Shown here: positions 5,424 through 33,502 of the stretch, piece by piece
How the letters are laid out: each line of letters starts with the position of its first letter
Position numbering within the stretch: position 1 is the stretch's first letter
The notes under the pieces: model-generated
Database searches by the model: none
Seen by the model: the letters and a program-made list of their open reading frames with translations, nothing else
Told to the model about the DNA's origin: nothing
Program-made: the position numbers and the translations under genes
DNA from: a virus
Strand: one strand, 5' to 3'
Virus record (IMG/VR): IMGVR_UViG_3300028393_000142
Span: 1-40,352 of that record
Length of the DNA stretch: 40,352 nt

Positions 5424-6081
5424 TGATAAAGAACCTATGTGGGAAACTGTTTATACAGTGGCTCGCTTAGCTGCTGTACGTTGTGTACGTATCCATCGCA
5501 ATCTTGTATCTGTGGATGATGTGTTCCAACACTTGAACCTATGGGCGCTGGAACACTGGCACAAAATAGAAGAATGGCAACACCAGGATTCATTAGTGTT
5601 TAAACTTAAACGTACATTCAATAATGAATCTCAGAAGTTTGTTGCTAAGGAGCGTGCTTACAGAACCAAGTCAGTTCCATCTGATGCTTTCTATTACACC
5701 CATGAAATCTTGCAGGAGTTACTTAAAGATGTATGGGTATACGAACAATGGGTACAAAGTTCATCACCAAATGATGCTGAATTTATTAGCAAATCAAGCA
5801 AGCCAAGTGAGGGCATGAATCGTGAGGCTATGTTATCTGATGTAAGTGTTGCACTTAATCGTTTAAACGAACAAGATAGATTGTTGTTGCATCGTAGGTT
5901 TGCAAATGGTGGAACAGATATTGATGCTTTGGCTATTGAGTATTCCATTAGTGATGAAGCTGTTCGCAAAAGAATTAGCCGTTCGCTAGGGAAATTGCAA
6001 GATAGATTAGGTGGCGAACAGCCACAATGGAATAACCGTAGATACAATAAACCAGATAAGGAAACAAATAACAATGATTAA
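5407..6081 (+). CDS. Sigma-factor-like protein (region-4-type HTH)
   Basis: A 224-aa protein. Residues 145-202 resemble sigma70 region 4: LNEQDRLLLHRRF, then DIDALAIEY, then a recognition helix around EAVRKRISRSL. The N-terminal part is helical with several Trp residues and could be a degenerate region 2, but no clear -10 recognition motif is visible. The GTG at 5407 overlaps the previous gene; ATG 5437 is an alternative. It is the obvious candidate for redirecting host RNA polymerase, for example to late transcription. A DNA-binding regulator without sigma activity is the alternative. Confidence 0.65.
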   Translation: MNQLIDDKEPMWETVYTVARLAAVRCVRIHRNLVSVDDVFQHLNLWALEHWHKIEEWQHQDSLVFKLKRTFNNESQKFVAKERAYRTKSVPSDAFYYTHEILQELLKDVWVYEQWVQSSSPNDAEFISKSSKPSEGMNREAMLSDVSVALNRLNEQDRLLLHRRFANGGTDIDALAIEYSISDEAVRKRISRSLGKLQDRLGGEQPQWNNRRYNKPDKETNNND

Positions 6082-6208
6082 ACACCAACCAATGAAACCT
6101 TGGAACTGGTTAGGGTTGCCTCTGTATTACTTTGGATTATATTTAAACGATATTGGTTATTACATTCACCTGGCAGGCGATAAGATTATATGGTTTAAAC
6201 GTAAATGA
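6074..6208 (+). CDS. Tiny membrane-associated protein
   Basis: A 44-aa peptide rich in Trp, Tyr, Leu and Ile (PWNWLGLPLYYFGLYL) with a basic C-terminus, likely to lie on or in the membrane. It overlaps the sigma-like gene by 8 nt and the next gene by ATGA, which supports its reality. A GTTTAAAC palindrome lies at its 3' end. Function unknown. Confidence 0.5.
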   Translation: MIKHQPMKPWNWLGLPLYYFGLYLNDIGYYIHLAGDKIIWFKRK

Positions 6209-8468: not shown

Positions 8469-9320
8469 TTAGAATAGGTGAGTGTCATAATAGCCAGAGT
8501 GTTCTGTCTTGCTATCCCACTCACCATTATCCCACTGCTGCCACATGTCGCCCGTCTCAGTGTATAGAGGCGAGTACTTGCGCCAGTTATATTTAATCGC
8601 TGGTGTTCTATGAGGCGTGAATTTTAGGTAATCTAGAATCTTTCCGTTACGTACCTTAAAATACTCTCCCTCATCTGCCGAATGTTCCCAGTCTAGGGAA
8701 GTATCAAGCATGACGGCAGCGTTTAAAATAGTTTCACGGGTTGAGCCATAGACTAGCGAGCCTGTTCGTGTCTGCCCTATCCATAACGGGGAAGAATTGA
8801 CACGCGCTAGGTGTAGCGTGTTACTCCTGCCCTGTTCTATCCACGCGAGCGCTGCCGTGCCCTGTAAGCGTGGCAGCAGCTCGACAATAGGTGCATCACC
8901 GAACGCGATTAGGGCAGCGATAGCCTCGCTGTCTACTTGCGCGTGACGTTTAACCTTAAGCTCCTTGAATAGTTCCCTGTCATTATTCACGTGTCCATTA
9001 TGCGTTAGCACAATTTTACCGCGTGGGATAGGGTGGTTATTCTGGTTCACTTGAGGCGTGCCCTTAGTGGCGAAACGAGTGTGCAAGATAGCTGTGGTTG
9101 CATCTAAGCACGCACGCCGACCCGTTTCTGTTTTAATGAATTTAGAGGCAGACATAGCAGCCTTACTGATAACTCTGTTACCTGTTGCCGCGTTAATCCA
9201 TGCCGCGCCCGTGGCGTGCTGTCCTCGATGTTCAATATCGAGCAGCATCTGAGCTGTTAAGCCTGTCTGGTTGCTGTTATGTTCTTTACTGTTTAGGCAG
9301 TATCCTGCAATTCCACACAT
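8469..9320 (-). CDS. Class II glutamine amidotransferase (stand-alone glutaminase domain)
   Basis: A 283-aa N-terminal-nucleophile amidotransferase. Cys2 becomes the nucleophile after Met removal. HTRFAT (R82) and NGH (N108, G109) form the glutamine site, and DSEA (D130) completes it, as in PurF, GlmS and AsnB. It is only the glutaminase domain plus a short tail (those enzymes run about 500-600 aa), so the released ammonia must go to a separate acceptor enzyme. The amidoligase in the same leftward cluster is the obvious partner. G+C is higher than in the phage backbone. GACAGGAGA precedes the start. An alternative role is hydrolysis of a glutamyl compound without transfer. Confidence 0.85.
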   Translation of the reverse strand: MCGIAGYCLNSKEHNSNQTGLTAQMLLDIEHRGQHATGAAWINAATGNRVISKAAMSASKFIKTETGRRACLDATTAILHTRFATKGTPQVNQNNHPIPRGKIVLTHNGHVNNDRELFKELKVKRHAQVDSEAIAALIAFGDAPIVELLPRLQGTAALAWIEQGRSNTLHLARVNSSPLWIGQTRTGSLVYGSTRETILNAAVMLDTSLDWEHSADEGEYFKVRNGKILDYLKFTPHRTPAIKYNWRKYSPLYTETGDMWQQWDNGEWDSKTEHSGYYDTHLF

Positions 9321-9671: not shown

Positions 9672-10388
9672 TTAGCCGTTTAGCTCAGTAGCTCGCTGCT
9701 TGAGATATTCTGCCGTAGGCGTGTCTAGCGTGTTCGCTGCCGTCAGTGTTTCGAGTATCTCGAAACAGTCTAGTAACTTGCTGCCAGTACCTGCCGATAG
9801 CGTGCCTCCATTAAGTGAGAAACTCGCTAGAGACTCGCAGAATTTCGCCCATGCCTCAATTTTCTTGCCGTTGAGGGTGCCGTGATGGAGTCGAAATTCT
9901 ATAGTGCCGTGCCTATCGTAGCTGTTCAAGTTTAAGGACATGAACCGCCCAGTTGAGACAGCGTTGTTGTTGATGTGATTATTTCTAATCGTTTCTCCCC
10001 AGTAATCTATGTCTCGCTCACTTAGTGAGTGGAGACAGTAGCGATTACTTAGGCGAGACTTAGCAACCAGCGCACCTATTCCATTAGCTGCCGTGTACCA
10101 GTTATGCACCAGTGCAGCGATAGCGTTTACGCCATAGTAATCGGCTCCTAAGTGGACATGATAGCCAGTCTGTTTATTTACAGTTGCACCAGCACGGGCG
10201 AGCGCACGGGCTGCCGTGAGTGTTTCGTTTAGTGTTCCATCGTTGAGGATGGGAGACACTGCCTCTGCATCCACTCCATTAGTACCATCTGGCTTACACT
10301 CCCACGCTAAGCCTGCCCTATCAAGGGCAGCTTGAGCCGTGCCAATACCTATGCTCGATGTTTCAAGCTCGATGCCGTAAGTTTTCAT
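9672..10388 (-). CDS. Amidoligase (COOH-NH2 ligase, Amidoligase_2-like)
   Basis: A 238-aa enzyme with the amidoligase motif order. It has YGIELE at the N-terminus (E7, E9), KPDGTNGVDAEAVSPIL (32-48), GYHVHLG (75-81), RFMSLN (148-153) and TIEFRLHHGT (162-171). These are the ATP/Mg and substrate residues of the glutamine-synthetase/ATP-grasp-like amidoligase family, which joins a carboxylate to an amine or ammonia. Comparative genomics has linked this family to glutamine amidotransferases, matching the neighbour at 8469. The TAATG overlap with the upstream zincin-like gene indicates coupled translation. The substrate is unknown; a peptidoglycan or peptide carboxylate is a reasonable guess. Confidence 0.8.
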   Translation of the reverse strand: MKTYGIELETSSIGIGTAQAALDRAGLAWECKPDGTNGVDAEAVSPILNDGTLNETLTAARALARAGATVNKQTGYHVHLGADYYGVNAIAALVHNWYTAANGIGALVAKSRLSNRYCLHSLSERDIDYWGETIRNNHINNNAVSTGRFMSLNLNSYDRHGTIEFRLHHGTLNGKKIEAWAKFCESLASFSLNGGTLSAGTGSKLLDCFEILETLTAANTLDTPTAEYLKQRATELNG

Positions 10389-10945
10389 TAGTTCTCCAGT
10401 CTAAGTGTTGCGTGACATACAGGGCAGCATGGGCAGCCATACGAATTAGCTGTCCTGCTTGATATTCTGACAATATAGGCAGCGTGAGCGTTTCCGTTCA
10501 TGCTGTCTCCGTAGCATACAGCCTTAAGGAGTCGCGTACTCTGCTTAGTGGCACTATCTAGTACCTCTAACCTAGCGTGCGGATACTCCCCGACACTATC
10601 TAGGGCAGCTAGTGCCCATGATGGCAGCCTGTCCAGTGGCTTAGCCACTGCTGGCGCGTTATCTCGCCAGTCTCCCACGTGAGCGAGCTTCAACAGTGGC
10701 AGCAGCAGTGCTGCCACTGTCTCTCCTCCCTCGATGGTAGGGGAAATGAATATCTCTGCCGTGAAGTCCTCAGAGGCTGTTGGAGGGATAACGGCAGCAG
10801 GGATGACCTTGCGACCGCTATACGGAGGGAATCCGCATGATAGGCGAATAGTTGCCTCCTCTGCTCCTCCATGTCCTCCTATGCTGCTCAGAATTTCATC
10901 CTTAACAGTGCTAGCGAATTTCGCCAGCCATGTTTCTCTGTTCAT
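10388..10945 (-). CDS. SprT/zincin-like protein with lost HExxH motif
   Basis: A 185-aa protein resembling the SprT-like phage metallopeptidases by its EIFISP strand (residues 64-69) and its KQSTRLLKAVC segment (135-144). Its C-terminal Cys cluster (C171, C173, C174, C177) may form a zinc ribbon with C144. Where the family has HELVH, this protein reads P83, L84, L85, K86, L87, so both metal-binding His and the catalytic Glu are gone while flanking residues keep register. It is likely a pseudo-enzyme with a binding or scaffolding role. ATG 10945 is chosen because AAGGACTGG precedes it; longer forms would start inside the repeat region. It is coupled to the amidoligase by TAATG. Confidence 0.65.
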   Translation of the reverse strand: MNRETWLAKFASTVKDEILSSIGGHGGAEEATIRLSCGFPPYSGRKVIPAAVIPPTASEDFTAEIFISPTIEGGETVAALLLPLLKLAHVGDWRDNAPAVAKPLDRLPSWALAALDSVGEYPHARLEVLDSATKQSTRLLKAVCYGDSMNGNAHAAYIVRISSRTANSYGCPCCPVCHATLRLEN

Positions 10946-11044
10946 GTTTACCAGTCCTTCTAATCGTTTAAACAGCTTGAAAGTCTCAAGCTGCAAGAGG
11001 CATCTAACCAGTTACGCATGAACAGAAGGTGAATACCAAATAAA

Positions 11045-25203: not shown

Positions 25204-25674
25204 ATGGCTACCAATTACGAATACGATGACGAAGATGATTTCACAGAAGAATCTGGAGATGTCGTAAAGCAACTACGCAAGGTTAATCGAACATTAGAAA
25301 AACGTTTGAAAGACCTTGAACAAGAAGCAAATACGTTCAGAGTTCAAGCTCGTCAACGTACCGTCAAGGATGTTTTATCAGCAAAGGGTATCAATCCAAA
25401 AGTCGCAGCATTTATACCTCAGGACATTGATATGACAGAGGAAGCCGTGTCAGCATGGCTTGAAGAATACGGCGATGTATTTGGTGCAAAGCCAGCAGAA
25501 CCTGACGATGTTCAGGAAAAAAATGTACCTGATGCAAGTGCACAATCAAGAATTAACAATGTTATTTCTTCGGGAACACCACCAAGTGTTGATGAAGATT
25601 CACTTTCCAAAATTCTTAATGCTGCAAGTGCTGCTGATTTAAGTAAAATCCTTGGTATAACAACTTATAACTAA
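25204..25674 (+). CDS. Scaffolding protein
   Basis: A 156-aa acidic protein just before the capsid gene. It has an acidic N-terminus (YEYDDEDDF), a Lys/Glu coiled coil (about residues 20-60), a middle alpha segment and a Ser/Ala-rich C-terminal helix ending near the capsid start. This is the usual build of capsid assembly scaffolds. Its expected job is to direct procapsid assembly and then leave. No protease domain is present within it. Confidence 0.7.
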   Translation: MATNYEYDDEDDFTEESGDVVKQLRKVNRTLEKRLKDLEQEANTFRVQARQRTVKDVLSAKGINPKVAAFIPQDIDMTEEAVSAWLEEYGDVFGAKPAEPDDVQEKNVPDASAQSRINNVISSGTPPSVDEDSLSKILNAASAADLSKILGITTYN

Positions 25675-25702: not shown

Positions 25703-26881
25703 ATGGCTACAGTTTATACAGATACATCCGCTATTGCGGGTTTAATCAAAACTGCTTATGACCGCTATGTAGAGTTCGCGCTTCGTGCTCAACCATTGAT
25801 TCGTTCAGTGGCAGACAAGCGCCCAGCTCAACAGGCGATGCCAGGTTCAAGCGTTGTATTCTCACTCTACAACGATTTGTCACCTGTTACATCGTCTTTA
25901 TCATCAGAATCAACTGACCCAGATGCTGTTGCTCTGCCAGATGTTTCTACCGTTTCTGTTTCACTTGCTGAATATGGAAACGCTTCACTTGTAACTCGCA
26001 AGTTGCAGTTGTTCTCACTCTCAGATGTTGACCCAGCAGTTGCTGACATCATCGCGTTCAACATGGCAGACTCGCTAGACAAGATTGCAATGGAATCATT
26101 GCGCCAAGGAACCAACGTAATTTACGGTGGAAGCCGTACATCAACTGCAACAATTACAGCAACTGACACAATCACTGCTGCAAACATCCGTAAGGCTGTT
26201 GCTAAGTTGCGTTCAAACAAAGCTGTACCACGTGAAGGTGCACTTTATTGGTGCGGTATCCACCCAGAAGTTTCACACGACCTTCGTGCTGAAACTGGTG
26301 TTGGTGGATGGAATGACATGCACAAGTATGCAGAAACAGGTACAGGTCAGTTCTGGCCTGGAACCATTGGAACATTTGAAGGTGCCTACTTTGTAGAAAC
26401 CCCTCGTATGTACCGTGGCGTAGATGGTGCTGACCAGTCAGCACTTGCTACAACTGCAGTAACTGTTGCTGCAGCATCTGCTGCATACACATTTGGTGTG
26501 GCTTCATCATCTGTTATCGCTACTTCTGCAGAAGCAGGAGATAAGGTTTCAGGTACAGGTATTGCATCTGGTGCAAAGATTACATCTTTGGTTACATCAG
26601 GTTCAACAACAACCATCACAGTTGACACAGCACACTCTGGTGCTGTTACAGCGACAACCACTATAACCGTAACTCCAGTGGCTGCTAACTACCGCACAAT
26701 CCTTGCTGGAAAGCAAGCACTTGCTGAGGCAGTAGCGCAGGAACCAAACGTTGTTATCGGACCAGTCGTTGACCGTTTGATGCGTTTCCGTCCTATCGGA
26801 TGGTATGGCGTACTTGGCTTCGCTCGTTATCGTGAAGCTGCTCTTTACCGCATTGAAACTGGTTCATCCATTTCTGCATAA
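25703..26881 (+). CDS. Major capsid protein (HK97 fold, N4-gp56-like) with inserted beta domain
   Basis: A 392-aa protein preceded by an excellent ribosome-binding site (AAGGAGGTGA). The order of an N-terminal arm, SVADKRPAQQAMPGSSV, a central IRKAVAKLRSNKA helix, WCGIHPEV and a FVETPRMYR strand fits HK97-type shells of the N4-gp56-like group. Residues about 250-327 are a Ser/Thr/Val-rich beta segment (VASSSVIATSAEAGDKVSG...) resembling repeats in the 1009-aa tail protein. They are probably a surface loop insertion, and the capsid fold resumes at YRTILAGKQALAEA. A terminator-like hairpin follows the gene. Confidence 0.85.
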   Translation: MATVYTDTSAIAGLIKTAYDRYVEFALRAQPLIRSVADKRPAQQAMPGSSVVFSLYNDLSPVTSSLSSESTDPDAVALPDVSTVSVSLAEYGNASLVTRKLQLFSLSDVDPAVADIIAFNMADSLDKIAMESLRQGTNVIYGGSRTSTATITATDTITAANIRKAVAKLRSNKAVPREGALYWCGIHPEVSHDLRAETGVGGWNDMHKYAETGTGQFWPGTIGTFEGAYFVETPRMYRGVDGADQSALATTAVTVAAASAAYTFGVASSSVIATSAEAGDKVSGTGIASGAKITSLVTSGSTTTITVDTAHSGAVTATTTITVTPVAANYRTILAGKQALAEAVAQEPNVVIGPVVDRLMRFRPIGWYGVLGFARYREAALYRIETGSSISA

Positions 26882-26942: not shown

Positions 26943-27215
26943 ATGGCGCAGTACAGATTTGTACCACCTACAGTATTTGAAACACCTATGGGTTGGGATA
27001 GATTATTTATTCGTTATGGTATTCATCGTGGGGTTACTGTCATGATGATTGATGGACAGTATTCATCTTACCGCTTTCCTAGTCAAACTGAAATGGCTAC
27101 AGCTTCAGAAGTTTATCTTGGTGGGCATGAATATATTATAGATGAAAAAACAAAAACAAGACTTACCGATTCAAATATTGGTGGCAACTACGGAAGTAAT
27201 ATAACAACAATATGA
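26943..27215 (+). CDS. Hypothetical late protein after capsid
   Basis: A 90-aa beta-rich protein (YRFVPPTVFETP at the N-terminus) with AAGGAG before its start and a four-base overlap with the next gene. Similar short proteins occur near actinophage head genes, but the function is not recognised here. A head-completion or connector role is possible by position. Confidence 0.55.
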   Translation: MAQYRFVPPTVFETPMGWDRLFIRYGIHRGVTVMMIDGQYSSYRFPSQTEMATASEVYLGGHEYIIDEKTKTRLTDSNIGGNYGSNITTI

Positions 27216-27484
27216 GTTTGCATAGAATACAAAAACATCCAGAGTTTGTTGAAGGATGTTTTGGGTGCAAAATAAGTACACTTGAATTAGGAACAGGCGA
27301 TGCTGGGCGTGCTGATTCTATGTCACAAAAAAAATGGAATAGAGAACTAGACCTTTATAAGTCTGCCCGTAGGCAAGGAATACAACCAGCAGGAACTTCT
27401 AGCAAACAAATTCAAAAAGCAATAGATGATTCCAATAAAGTTGGCAAAGCTTTTGATGCCAACACTAATAGTTTTAAAGGATAG
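27212..27484 (+). CDS. Hypothetical late protein with CFGCK motif
   Basis: A 90-aa basic protein beginning near HPEFVEGCFGCK, with a CxxC pair near residue 17, then a Lys/Arg-rich helix and polar tail. Proteins with this opening are seen in actinophages. Function unknown. It overlaps the upstream gene and precedes the Ntn hydrolase by two bases. Confidence 0.55.
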   Translation: MSLHRIQKHPEFVEGCFGCKISTLELGTGDAGRADSMSQKKWNRELDLYKSARRQGIQPAGTSSKQIQKAIDDSNKVGKAFDANTNSFKG

Positions 27485-27486
27485 AT

Positions 27487-28185
27487 ATGACTGCCATTGT
27501 AGGTATTCAGGGAAAAGGTTGGGCTGTAATAGCTGCAGATTCCATGACTACGTATAATGACAAACCATATTATTCAAAAGATATTAATAAAGTTGTACGC
27601 AAAGGTGAGTATGTATTTGCTTTTGCTGGTGATGCTATTGCTGGAAATATAGCAGAGTTTTTATGGAATCCACCAAAGTTAATTAAAACAATGTCACTTA
27701 ACGCTTTTGTACAATCCAAGGTATTGCCATCGCTTAGGTGGACAATGCTTGAGCAAGGTTATTCCCCAGATAAAACAAAAGATTCTGATTTTGGGTTTGA
27801 TGCTCTTTTGTGTTTAAACGGAATTATTTATGAAATTGATGAAAGTTTTATGTGGTCACGTGATGACCGTGGATTATATTCAGTAGGTAGTGGAGGCGAT
27901 ATAGCCCTTGGTGCATTAGCCACTGGTTTTAATAGAACTTCTATAAAGTCAGCAGAATCTGCTGCACGTAAGGCAATAAGAATTTCTGCCGATTACACAA
28001 TTAGTGTAGGTGGAAACATCAAAGTAATCACACAAAAGGGGAATAACATGGCAATGGCAAAAAAGAAAATTACACCAGCAATGAAGAAGAAGGCTTATGC
28101 AATGCAGGAAAAAGCTGAACCAAAAGCTACAAAAGCTAAAGAAATGAAAGCTGGTTTAGCAATGATGATGAAGAAAGGCAAGTAA
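27487..28185 (+). CDS. Proteasome-beta/HslV-like Ntn hydrolase with Lys-rich tail
   Basis: A 232-aa protein. M1-T2 lets Met removal expose a catalytic Thr1. AADS places Asp at mature position 17 and NKVV a Lys near 34, close to the Thr1/Asp17/Lys33 set of proteasome beta and HslV. FAFAGD and the VGSGGDIALGALATG segment match the later conserved strands. The fold ends near residue 180. The final 45 residues are Lys/Ala/Met-rich, and an internal ATG at 28048 with GGGG upstream could make this tail as a separate protein. In the head module it could serve as a prohead or virion protease; a role against host proteins is the alternative. Confidence 0.75.
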   Translation: MTAIVGIQGKGWAVIAADSMTTYNDKPYYSKDINKVVRKGEYVFAFAGDAIAGNIAEFLWNPPKLIKTMSLNAFVQSKVLPSLRWTMLEQGYSPDKTKDSDFGFDALLCLNGIIYEIDESFMWSRDDRGLYSVGSGGDIALGALATGFNRTSIKSAESAARKAIRISADYTISVGGNIKVITQKGNNMAMAKKKITPAMKKKAYAMQEKAEPKATKAKEMKAGLAMMMKKGK

Positions 28186-28187
28186 TC

Positions 28188-28310
28188 ATGTGCACAACAT
28201 GCGGATGCGGAAGTCCTCAAACAAATCAAGATGATAATTTTGGAACAGTAAATCCTTACGGAATCATGGGTTCAGAAGTTTATAAGCCAACAACCCTTGG
28301 TCAAAAGTAA
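28188..28310 (+). CDS. Tiny Cys-rich protein
   Basis: A 40-aa protein beginning MCTTCGCG, with three closely spaced Cys and a polar rest. Its stop overlaps the next start (TAATG), and the start lies two bases after the Ntn-hydrolase stop. The Cys cluster could bind metal. Function unknown. Confidence 0.5.
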   Translation: MCTTCGCGSPQTNQDDNFGTVNPYGIMGSEVYKPTTLGQK

Positions 28311-28486
28311 TGGCAGTTAAAAAGGGAATGGGTTTTGCTGCTGCTCAAAAAAACATTAGCAAAAAACAAGGAATCCCAATGAAAAATGCAGGAGCAATTC
28401 TTGCAGCAGGTGCACGTAATGCATCCACTTCTGCAAAAAAAGCAAATCCAAATCTTAAAAAAGTATTAGGAAAAAAGGGTAAGTAA
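28310..28486 (+). CDS. Tiny Lys/Ala-rich basic protein
   Basis: A 58-aa strongly basic protein, coupled by TAATG to the Cys-rich gene, ending LGKKGK. Composition resembles small DNA-condensing or internal head proteins. The KKGK end is shared with its neighbours. Confidence 0.55.
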   Translation: MAVKKGMGFAAAQKNISKKQGIPMKNAGAILAAGARNASTSAKKANPNLKKVLGKKGK

Positions 28487-28789
28487 ATGGCAAAATCCCC
28501 AGCTTGGCAACGTAAAGAGGGCAAGTCACCTACTGGTGGATTAAATGCTAAGGGCAGAGCTTCTGCCAAAGCAGAAGGTCATAATCTTAAAGCTCCTGTT
28601 AAATCTGGAGATAACCCACGCAGAGCATCTTTTCTAGCCCGTATGGGCGGTATGCCTGGGCCTGAACGCAAACCTAATGGAGAACCTACACGCTTATTGC
28701 TATCGCTTCAAGCTTGGGGTGCATCATCAAAAGCAGATGCTAAATCAAAAGCTGCTGCTATTTCCAAAAGAAATAAAGGAAATAAATGA
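28487..28789 (+). CDS. Small basic protein (DUF6321-like)
   Basis: A 100-aa basic protein with SPAWQRKEGKSPTGGLNAKGRAS at its start and DNPRRASFLARMGG plus GEPTRLLLSLQAWGA later. This is an ordered, recognisable arrangement seen in aquatic phage proteins; I recall it as DUF6321-like, from memory. Its start follows the previous stop directly and its stop overlaps the next start by ATGA. A virion or DNA-binding role is inferred from charge and position. Confidence 0.6.
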   Translation: MAKSPAWQRKEGKSPTGGLNAKGRASAKAEGHNLKAPVKSGDNPRRASFLARMGGMPGPERKPNGEPTRLLLSLQAWGASSKADAKSKAAAISKRNKGNK

Positions 28790-28946: not shown

Positions 28947-29675
28947 ATGGCAACTGGATATGTAGGAAGCACGCTTGTAGCTGAGTTAAATAGGCTTGGT
29001 AATGCTGGTACATATCCAGCCCGTACTGCTTTTCTTGAAGAAGCTGGTGCTGCTAATCAATGGCTTAATATAAATTGGCATACAACAGTTCATGCTGTAG
29101 TTAGTTCTCCAACCACTGGTGTTTATGCACCAGGAACAACAGGTGCCGATGGTGGTACTGGTGTTGGTGCAACTATTACTGCAGCAACAAATGGAGCTGG
29201 TTACACAGTAGATGGACACGCCATGGCATTAGGTGAACGTGTTGCATATATTGCTAATACAGATTCTAAGACTAATGGAATTTACATAGTAACAAGTCTT
29301 GGTAGCGCATCAACTAAATGGGTAGTAACTCGTTCAACAGATTACGACAATGGAACACGTGCTGCAATGGTTTCTATTGGTGATTACTTTGGTCCAATTC
29401 AAGCAGGAACTGTAAACATTGGAAAGTATTTTCGTATGAACGCCACCGGAACTGGAGTTAATGGTTCCATTGTTATTGGAACAGACAACATTACTTTTGG
29501 AGAAATATCTCAACCAGTTTTTCCAGCACAACTTGAAACAGTACATGCCCTTAATTTAAAAGCAGACCCACTTCGTACTCCAGCAAACTTCAAAGGGTTT
29601 AATGCAATTTGCAATGAACTTGCTGGCACCGTTAACACTGCACCAACAGCAGCATTAAGGAGCATAAATATATGA
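28947..29675 (+). CDS. Structural protein with phage-type beta domain
   Basis: A 242-aa Gly/Thr-rich protein. Residues 70-150 carry a repeat-like beta segment (VDGHAMALGERVAYIANTDSKTNGIYIV) that recurs in phage tail and fibre proteins. The rest is likely beta sandwich, with a short helical tail. It lies just before the connector and overlaps it by ATGA. A collar, neck or short-fibre component is likely. Confidence 0.6.
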   Translation: MATGYVGSTLVAELNRLGNAGTYPARTAFLEEAGAANQWLNINWHTTVHAVVSSPTTGVYAPGTTGADGGTGVGATITAATNGAGYTVDGHAMALGERVAYIANTDSKTNGIYIVTSLGSASTKWVVTRSTDYDNGTRAAMVSIGDYFGPIQAGTVNIGKYFRMNATGTGVNGSIVIGTDNITFGEISQPVFPAQLETVHALNLKADPLRTPANFKGFNAICNELAGTVNTAPTAALRSINI

Positions 29676-32033: not shown

Positions 32034-32351
32034 ATGGCTACAACAACTAGGGCGCTGTTCCGTGGAGCAGCAACCACATCAACATCAACAACACTTTATA
32101 CAGTACCAACTATTGCAACATCAACTGTTGTTACAAATATAGTAGTTTCTAATACAGCAGCATCTACTTCTACAGTAACCATTGCTATTGATGGTGTTAA
32201 TTTATTACCTACAGTAAACATTGCTGCTAACTCTGTAGCAACTTTTGATATGAAACAAGTTATTCCTGCAAATAACCCAGTAAAGATAATTACTGGTGGA
32301 GCTTCAACAACTGCAGTAACAATTCACATTAGTGGGGTGGAGATAGTCTAA
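32034..32351 (+). CDS. Small beta-sandwich tail protein
   Basis: A 105-aa Thr/Val-rich protein containing TTLYTVP and a GVEIV C-terminus. It is clearly related to the protein at 33861-34193 in layout and opening. Likely a small virion-surface or fibre-associated subunit. It overlaps the polyglycine gene by TAATG. Confidence 0.6.
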   Translation: MATTTRALFRGAATTSTSTTLYTVPTIATSTVVTNIVVSNTAASTSTVTIAIDGVNLLPTVNIAANSVATFDMKQVIPANNPVKIITGGASTTAVTIHISGVEIV

Positions 32352-33502
32352 TGGCATCAACAACATTTCCTTTAGCAGCTTCTAGCGTAGTTGCGCCACG
32401 CGATTTAACTTTACAGCAAACTATTACATCTGGAACCTCTGTAACAATTCCTGCTGGTATAACTTGGGTATACGCAGTTGTTATAGGTGGTGGAGGTAGC
32501 GGTGGCGGTGGAGCAGGCGGTGGAGGAGTTAACTCTGGTAATACTAACGTTGGGTGTGGAGGTGGTGGAGGTGGTGGAGGTGGTGGAGGTGGAGCCATAG
32601 TTTATGGTTGGGTTCCTGCATCTGCAACTTGTTCTATTGGAGCAGGTGGTTCATCTGTTGCAGGTGGAGCAGGTGGTTTGTTTGCTAATAATGGAAGTTC
32701 TGGAACCGTAGGAAATACTGGTGGTACTACTCGTTATTCAACTCTTATAGCAGGCGGTGGAGGCGGTGGAAGCGGTGGAACAGGTGGTGGAGCAGGCGGT
32801 AACAATGGTGTAAACGCTTCCCATCCTGAAGGAGCTGGAACTTTAGGTGGAGCTGCTGGTGGTGGTGTTGGTCTTGGCGGTGGTAGTCAATCAGGAACTG
32901 GTGGAATAATTGGTGGTGGAACTAGCCCAACAACTATAGCAAATATGTTTAATTACTCTACTACTGCTTGGAATCCAACTTCAAACGCTGGTACACAAGG
33001 TGGAGCAGGTTCAACAAGTACTTCTGGTTCTCCTGGGCCTGCTGCAATTGCTTCAAGTTTATCTATTGGTGCATCTTCTGGCGCTTCTGGTGCAGGCGGT
33101 GGTGGTGGAAGTACATCGGGGTCCGCGGCTGGAGCAGGTGGTGCAGCAAGTCAAACAGGTGCAGCACCAATTCCAGGTGGAGCAGGTGGTGCAGGCGGTG
33201 GTGGTGGAAGTGGTGGAGCTACTCCTGGCGCTGGCGGCACAGGCGGTGCTGGTGTTGGAACACAAACAGGTTTATTTGGTTCTGTAGGTGGTCTTGCAAA
33301 TGCTGGTAGTGCTGGAGTAAATAGCAATACAACACCAACTACTGGCGGTAATGGTGGAGCTGGAACAAATGGAGGCGGTGGGGGTGGTGGTTCAGGTGGT
33401 GGAGGAACTGGAGCACCTGCTGCTGGTACAAGTGTTGCTAATGGTGGAACTGGTGGAAGCGGTGGAGCTGGTGGCAATGGGGTTATTCTTCTTTATTACT
33501 AA
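32351..33502 (+). CDS. Polyglycine-rich tail-tip adhesin
   Basis: A 383-aa protein. The first 30 residues are a normal beta strand segment. Almost all the rest is Gly with Ser, Ala, Thr and Asn, in runs of up to 12 Gly (about residues 70-81). This matches the polyglycine-sandwich design of T-even-type gp38 adhesins, where loops between Gly helices contact the host receptor. The DNA has perfect 9-bp tandem GGTGGTGGA units (32558-32590) that can slip, so it may vary among strains. Assigned as receptor-binding by composition and position. Confidence 0.65.
   Translation: MASTTFPLAASSVVAPRDLTLQQTITSGTSVTIPAGITWVYAVVIGGGGSGGGGAGGGGVNSGNTNVGCGGGGGGGGGGGGAIVYGWVPASATCSIGAGGSSVAGGAGGLFANNGSSGTVGNTGGTTRYSTLIAGGGGGGSGGTGGGAGGNNGVNASHPEGAGTLGGAAGGGVGLGGGSQSGTGGIIGGGTSPTTIANMFNYSTTAWNPTSNAGTQGGAGSTSTSGSPGPAAIASSLSIGASSGASGAGGGGGSTSGSAAGAGGAASQTGAAPIPGGAGGAGGGGGSGGATPGAGGTGGAGVGTQTGLFGSVGGLANAGSAGVNSNTTPTTGGNGGAGTNGGGGGGGSGGGGTGAPAAGTSVANGGTGGSGGAGGNGVILLYY

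Follow-up and report, generated by a model that had tools for sequence, protein, structure and literature searches.

The window, that is, the whole stretch of DNA analysed here (40,352 nucleotides), is from a virus of freshwater actinobacteria. Its capsid protein and terminase have homologs in Streptomyces phages such as FlowerPower (51% and 52% identity, respectively), and its capsid protein is 66% identical to that of Planktophila phage LanE43-AprE7 (E7; OX376640), which is described together with phage F5 (OX376641) as cultured (PMC10202952). Positions 27487-28185 of the plus strand form a single open frame that starts with ATG, encodes 232 amino acids beginning with Met-Thr, and has the major capsid gene on one side and the connector-side genes on the other. 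The HslV-like domain at its beginning is followed in the same frame by a small basic protein, referred to as the tail (Table 1).

Table 1. Features of the head module around the HslV-like gene
Feature	Position	Strand	Basis or remark
Scaffolding-like protein	25204..25674	+	phrog_7813 E 1.6e-40; weak scaffold matches
Major capsid protein	25703..26881	+	phrog_1357 E 7.7e-76; Phage_capsid_3 46.8 bits
Conserved head-module gene, 90 aa	26943..27215	+	phrog_8987; synteny
g27212, conserved head-module gene, 90 aa, directly upstream of HslV	27212..27484	+	phrog_24600; synteny
HslV/proteasome-like domain, residues 1-187	27487..28047	+	PHROG, Pfam, alignment, model, structure comparison
Shine-Dalgarno-like AAGGGG	28036..28041	+	inside the last HslV codons, 6 nt ahead of ATG 28048
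Lys/Met-rich basic small gene, 45 aa	28048..28185	+	in frame with HslV here; free-standing in sister phages
Small Cys-containing ORF, 40 aa	28188..28310	+	sequence reading; stop overlaps next start
Second small basic gene P0002, 58 aa	28310..28486	+	similar ORFs in several relatives
DUF6321 basic protein	28487..28789	+	PF19846 75.9 bits

The region downstream of the HslV-like gene (28188-28789) is a run of small ORFs, and relatives carry other small basic genes there. The scaffolding-like protein scores 21.6 bits against DUF4355 (Gp46-type scaffold), under the cut-off of 25.4. The larger ORFs of the window, other than the Gly-rich frame at 32351-33502, and part of the small ones were scanned against PHROGs and Pfam, and no classical prohead protease came up, in line with the preliminary description. 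This absence is not odd, because a scaffold-like gene precedes the capsid gene, whose product shows no N-terminal extension: it aligns with the FlowerPower capsid protein from residue 1, so that no propeptide is visible by that comparison. Other products of the window include WhiB, a sigma factor, and a glycosyltransferase. Two adjoining genes on the minus strand (8469-9320 and 9672-10388) encode a class II glutamine amidotransferase (GATase; 74.1 bits in Pfam), which we take to be an Ntn-type enzyme itself, and an amidoligase (PF12224, 78.4 bits); a conserved partner gene lies beside them (10388-10996), and the trio is kept in the related genome G026. The frame at 32351-33502, in the tail-side region, encodes a 383-aa glycine-rich repeat protein; the long frames that face it on the other strand are spurious. 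A match of 28947-29675 to an enterotoxin B-subunit Pfam model (15.9 bits, cut-off 25) was taken as chance.

A proteasome/HslV-like protein had been proposed for the 232-aa frame from its letters alone, and family searches agree. The frame matches phrog_1040, "peptidase HslV family" (E 1.7e-22), and scores 31.5 bits against Pfam PF00227 (Proteasome), above the cut-off of 22.4. Its score against the HslV equivalog model TIGR03692 is 22.9 bits (cut-off 157.75), which rules out an HslV equivalog, and no partner HslU was among the PHROGs and Pfam family matches of the scanned window proteins. A profile built from 11 relatives matched PDB chains of HslV, the beta-proteobacterial proteasome homolog BPH, and proteasome beta chains. 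Relatives were picked by similarity, as the best 80 per scan from at least 591 and at least 548 matches, and the proportions among them given below are therefore not census figures. Among 28 stretches matched in a scan of genome contigs, one was a relative, a distant HslV-like gene (L162; 29% identity) on a contig of a Gammaproteobacteria MAG.

In the active-site region, every one of the 158 relatives in the alignment (148 different sequences; L161, whose end is incomplete, was left out) has Thr2, Asp18, Ser19, Lys35, and Gly48, and a GSGG motif lies at residues 134-137. Thr2, Asp18, Lys35, and Gly48 are the equivalents of Thr/Ser1, Asp17, Lys33, and Gly47, whose roles in proteasome-like Ntn hydrolases are set out in section 3.3 of PMC8665760. 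The assignment of Thr2, Asp18, and Lys35 to an Ntn site in the preliminary description holds, with Thr directly behind the start codon. A start codon position immediately precedes this Thr in 153 of 153 checked rows, i.e., a propeptide is absent; the codons are 135 ATG, 12 GTG, four ATC, and two ATA. The ATC or ATA of the last six copies (L169, L171, L172, L190, L192, and L229) suggests either rare start codons or sequence errors. Judged by a median dN/dS of 0.12 across 948 pairs of head-module HslV rows, the gene is under purifying selection.

The predicted structure of the 232-aa protein has a mean pLDDT of 85.0, mostly above 90 across residues 1-180; the linker at 188-195 is disordered in the model (pLDDT below 50), and the tail behind it is modelled as low-confidence helices. 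The modelled helices of the domain span residues 50-59, 71-89, 137-145, and 153-170, with both helix pairs there. BPH is the top Foldseek match (E 1.6e-10), and a VIA-align comparison with BPH 5ovt gives Z 19.9 over 169 aligned residues (rmsd 2.4), tied with proteasome beta chains; in this superposition residue 2 of the model falls on residue 1 of the BPH chain. In the model, then, the product combines the fold of BPH with an N-terminal Thr that needs no propeptide. The invariant Thr, Asp, Lys, and Gly, together with the modelled placement of Thr2 on Thr1 of BPH, make it very likely that the product is an active N-terminal-threonine hydrolase of the known phage family phrog_1040, and a place on the HslV/BPH side of the proteasome family is the best explanation of the sequence and model comparisons.

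The position of the gene varies among relatives. Of the 158 rows, 79 have it in the head module behind g27212 (two of these, L011 and L017, were labelled from downstream genes only), 71 between lysis-side genes and WhiB/helicase, three between helicase and primase, two behind the portal gene, one behind the primase gene, and two elsewhere; the label "early" was also given to rows flanked by a marker gene on one side only. The neighbourhood set comprised 72 of 80 loci, identical or partial loci being dropped. At least seven position changes are needed on a quick tree in which 57 of 145 inner branches are weakly supported and some branches are long. Five annotated copies from isolates lie outside head modules, near nucleotide-metabolism or small non-structural genes. 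Presence and absence were followed in twelve records chosen by their portal gene rather than by HslV, five of which carry HslV. The informative record is G026, which is closed: its ends overlap by about 130 nt, the first approximately 125 bases recurring near the end while the last few bases differ. Its head proteins are close to those of the window (TerL 81%, portal 71%, scaffold 58%, and MCP 76% identity), and no HslV was found in it: even the most sensitive profile search, run on its frames, gave no hit better than E 2.7. The slot behind g27212 is filled in G026 by an 85-aa gene of another kind and by small basic genes. Thus, the same capsid set works without HslV, barring an unrecognised substitute in G026. 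Six further records (G022, G023, and G028-G031) gave no HslV match and are either fragments or of unproven closure, so that they were not counted as absences; an exact end repeat was found neither in G023 nor in the window. No match was obtained in FlowerPower, in a search that had no positive control of its own, and none was among the listed matches of two single-sequence tblastn searches for the 49 phage records that remain when the two Planktophila phages are taken from the 51 with a homologous capsid; this is a weak test, with 25 of the 51 listed by name. On these genome comparisons the HslV-like gene is an accessory gene that relocates in related genomes and often stands near replication genes.

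The junction between the HslV-like domain and the tail is equally variable. The tail contains 14 Lys and three Asp or Glu among its 45 residues and has no Pfam or PHROG match. In ten sister loci (L042-L051) it is a gene of its own with no HslV in front of it, and HslV is free-standing in L037-L039, L053, L082, and L083; a tail that stands alone in sister phages is not an HslV-specific domain. The ten loci are not evidence of phages that have the tail and lack HslV: two of them with records near 40 kb (G004 and G006) have a divergent copy elsewhere, and in the other eight records, which are fragments of 4-21 kb, no HslV was found. In L045/L046 the basic tail gene (6007-6144) lies upstream of the portal gene and is 88% identical over 32 aa, as against 52% for the portal, as for a small gene changing place. 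Among 79 head-module HslV genes, the basic gene is fused in frame in 45, overlaps in the +1 frame in 12, adjoins at the stop in six, and is missing in 16. Junction sequences were read from a set in which identical genes were pooled and from which L035, L036, L040, and L041 were left out for their incomplete start. At least nine changes of state among the 63 genes with a basic gene are required by the quick tree, with its weakly supported and long branches, and at least two kinds of basic gene, the AYAM type and the EYAYTAKG type, fill the slot in frame.

The start of the tail is kept across these states. Wherever the slot holds a basic gene, a Shine-Dalgarno-like motif stands at the proper distance before its start, in 63 of 63 relatives (60 by the rule of taking the first ATG and three in which this rule had chosen a chance earlier ATG), as compared with 52 of 1267 other ATGs within HslV. 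Rows that read QKGN are always written AAG GGG (26/26), although GGG makes up 5.7% of the Gly codons there. The compared rows are kin, and neither count therefore represents independent events. The comparison indicates that the tail start is kept whatever its frame, and that the junction shifts, the fused form in the window being one of its states. A Lys-rich tail with a start of its own at ATG 28048, and hence two products from one gene, had been suggested in the preliminary description; since motif and ATG are retained in every relative with a basic gene, two products are likely from the frame in the window. That the tail start is unused and the fusion is the only product is hardly to be expected: the frame is indeed open throughout from 27487 to 28185, but the motif and ATG are conserved in any frame, and elsewhere the tail stands as a gene by itself (in sister phages) or overlaps HslV in another frame (in some relatives). 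The fusion itself may have followed from the loss of the stop as a neutral side effect; it could equally be useful where it is kept, in 45 of the 79 head-module relatives. The charge of the tail suggests, by inference from composition, a nucleic acid or another acidic partner.

Taken together, the gene probably encodes an accessory proteasome-like peptidase that acts in the infected cell, is dispensable for the capsid, and is made in the lineage of the window as an HslV-tail fusion alongside a free basic protein; we hold this with moderate confidence. For the activity, the ring, the substrates, the making of both products, and any role of the fused tail, we infer the following course. Removal of the initiator Met by the host would turn Thr2 into the catalytic N-terminal nucleophile, assisted by Asp18 and Lys35, with Gly48 as the oxyanion hole. 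If BPH is a guide, the subunits would form a closed double ring without a propeptide and perhaps without an unfoldase, and the peptidase would act inside the infected cell, probably on host or unfolded proteins. In the lineage of the window, HslV sits immediately ahead of a small basic gene of the head module and its stop has been lost, so that translation would yield the HslV-tail fusion, while the Shine-Dalgarno motif and ATG of the tail gene in the last HslV codons would also yield the free basic protein.

The place of the gene in the head module invites another explanation, a prohead maturation protease that enters the prohead and cuts scaffold or capsid protein while its basic tail targets the shell or DNA. 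Half of the compared rows (79/158) do sit behind the capsid gene, a classical prohead protease is missing from the scans of the window, and lambda C/Nu3 offers a parallel. A gene with that function should accompany this capsid set in every phage that builds it, and G026, with its MCP at 76% and scaffold at 58% identity, has none; FlowerPower has a homologous capsid and no HslV match (in the search without a positive control), against which no capsid propeptide is visible. The 71 rows between lysis-side genes and WhiB/helicase, the three between helicase and primase, and the five isolate copies outside head modules also speak against it. The known prohead proteases have folds of the assemblin, ClpP/S49, or S80 type, and the product of this frame has a predicted proteasome fold. 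The absence of HslV from G026 and the shifting position of the gene are the grounds on which the unusual maturation protease of the preliminary description was rejected; we regard it as very unlikely. Only slightly less improbable is that in the fused lineage the enzyme carries a polycationic tail directed to the virion or DNA and travels in or on the head. If so, each double ring would expose the tails of about a dozen subunits, a self-compartmentalised protease would either be packaged or be bound to phage DNA and so reach the next host, the free tail product would compete for the same sites, and a proteasome-type protease would have been recruited to the virion by fusion with a neighbouring gene.

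A narrower role inside the cell is also conceivable, in which the enzyme, as a counter-defence or host-takeover protease, would eliminate a single host protein or very few of them at an early stage of infection; an anti-host protease was also named in the preliminary description. The accessory nature of the gene, its variable position, its purifying selection, and its neighbourhood to replication and WhiB genes in many relatives are compatible with such a role, but its late-module position in the lineage of the window is not what would be expected; it is unlikely, if a possibility to be kept in mind. The proteasome-like family also includes a ligase (PMC8665760), and the window encodes both an amidoligase and a GATase, so that a specific Ntn amidase or connectase-like peptide ligase, possibly working with these two enzymes, can be envisaged. 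Yet G026 has amidoligase and GATase without HslV; these are therefore separable from HslV, and the link was dropped on that evidence. Residues 2-187, moreover, fit BPH and proteasome beta chains best, and such an activity appears quite improbable. An accessory peptidase of the infected cell thus remains the preferred reading.

Aquatic viruses carry many members of this family, one scan having matched at least 591 stretches. Two phages in culture that infect Planktophila LanE-43, a host that is itself cultured, also have members. Relatives with and without the gene occur naturally and share one capsid set. The junction is a clear case of a gene boundary that passes among fused, overlapping, and separate arrangements with no loss of the downstream start.

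The closest known proteins are the other phage copies of PHROG 1040, which belong to the same family and have the same Thr, Asp, and Lys: Actinomycetia phage DSL-LC01 (39% identity to HslV of the window), E7 and F5 (34-35%), and Arthrobacter phages Hum25 and Pitbull (28-29%). They differ in the place of the gene, which is directly behind the portal gene in E7 and outside the head module in DSL-LC01 and Hum25, and in the tail, which E7 and Hum25 lack and for which DSL-LC01 has a different basic C-terminus. BPH (5ovs/5ovt) is the best structural match and likewise has an N-terminal Thr; it is described as having no propeptide and no known partner unfoldase (PMC5777263). It differs in being encoded by a bacterial gene, in its low identity (approximately 22%), and in having no such basic tail. 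HslV of HslVU shares the fold, the active site, and a recognisable GSGG region, whereas the phage protein scores far under the TIGR03692 cut-off, and HslU was not found in the scanned proteins. Proteasome homologs of tailed phages were named PPH and AAH by Fuchs, Alva and Lupas (2021; PMC8665760); that article describes PPH as having about 140 residues and no helix H2, and reports that no Actinobacteria-specific phage carrying AAH was found. The domain of about 187 residues and both helix pairs in the model exclude PPH. HslV genes without HslU are described in Salmonella phage pSal-SNUABM-04 (PMC7823757) and a "proteasome-like" gene in Alteromonas phage V22 (PMC7289586). In the literature searched, no paper was found that tests any phage proteasome homolog experimentally. 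In lambda C/Nu3, too, a further product of the head module starts in frame within a protease gene. The lambda protease is unrelated, the scaffold of the window is a separate gene, and the internal product here would be a 45-aa basic protein. Phage proteasome homologs are known, as described from sequence; what is new is the lineage-specific gene fusion with its putative dual start.
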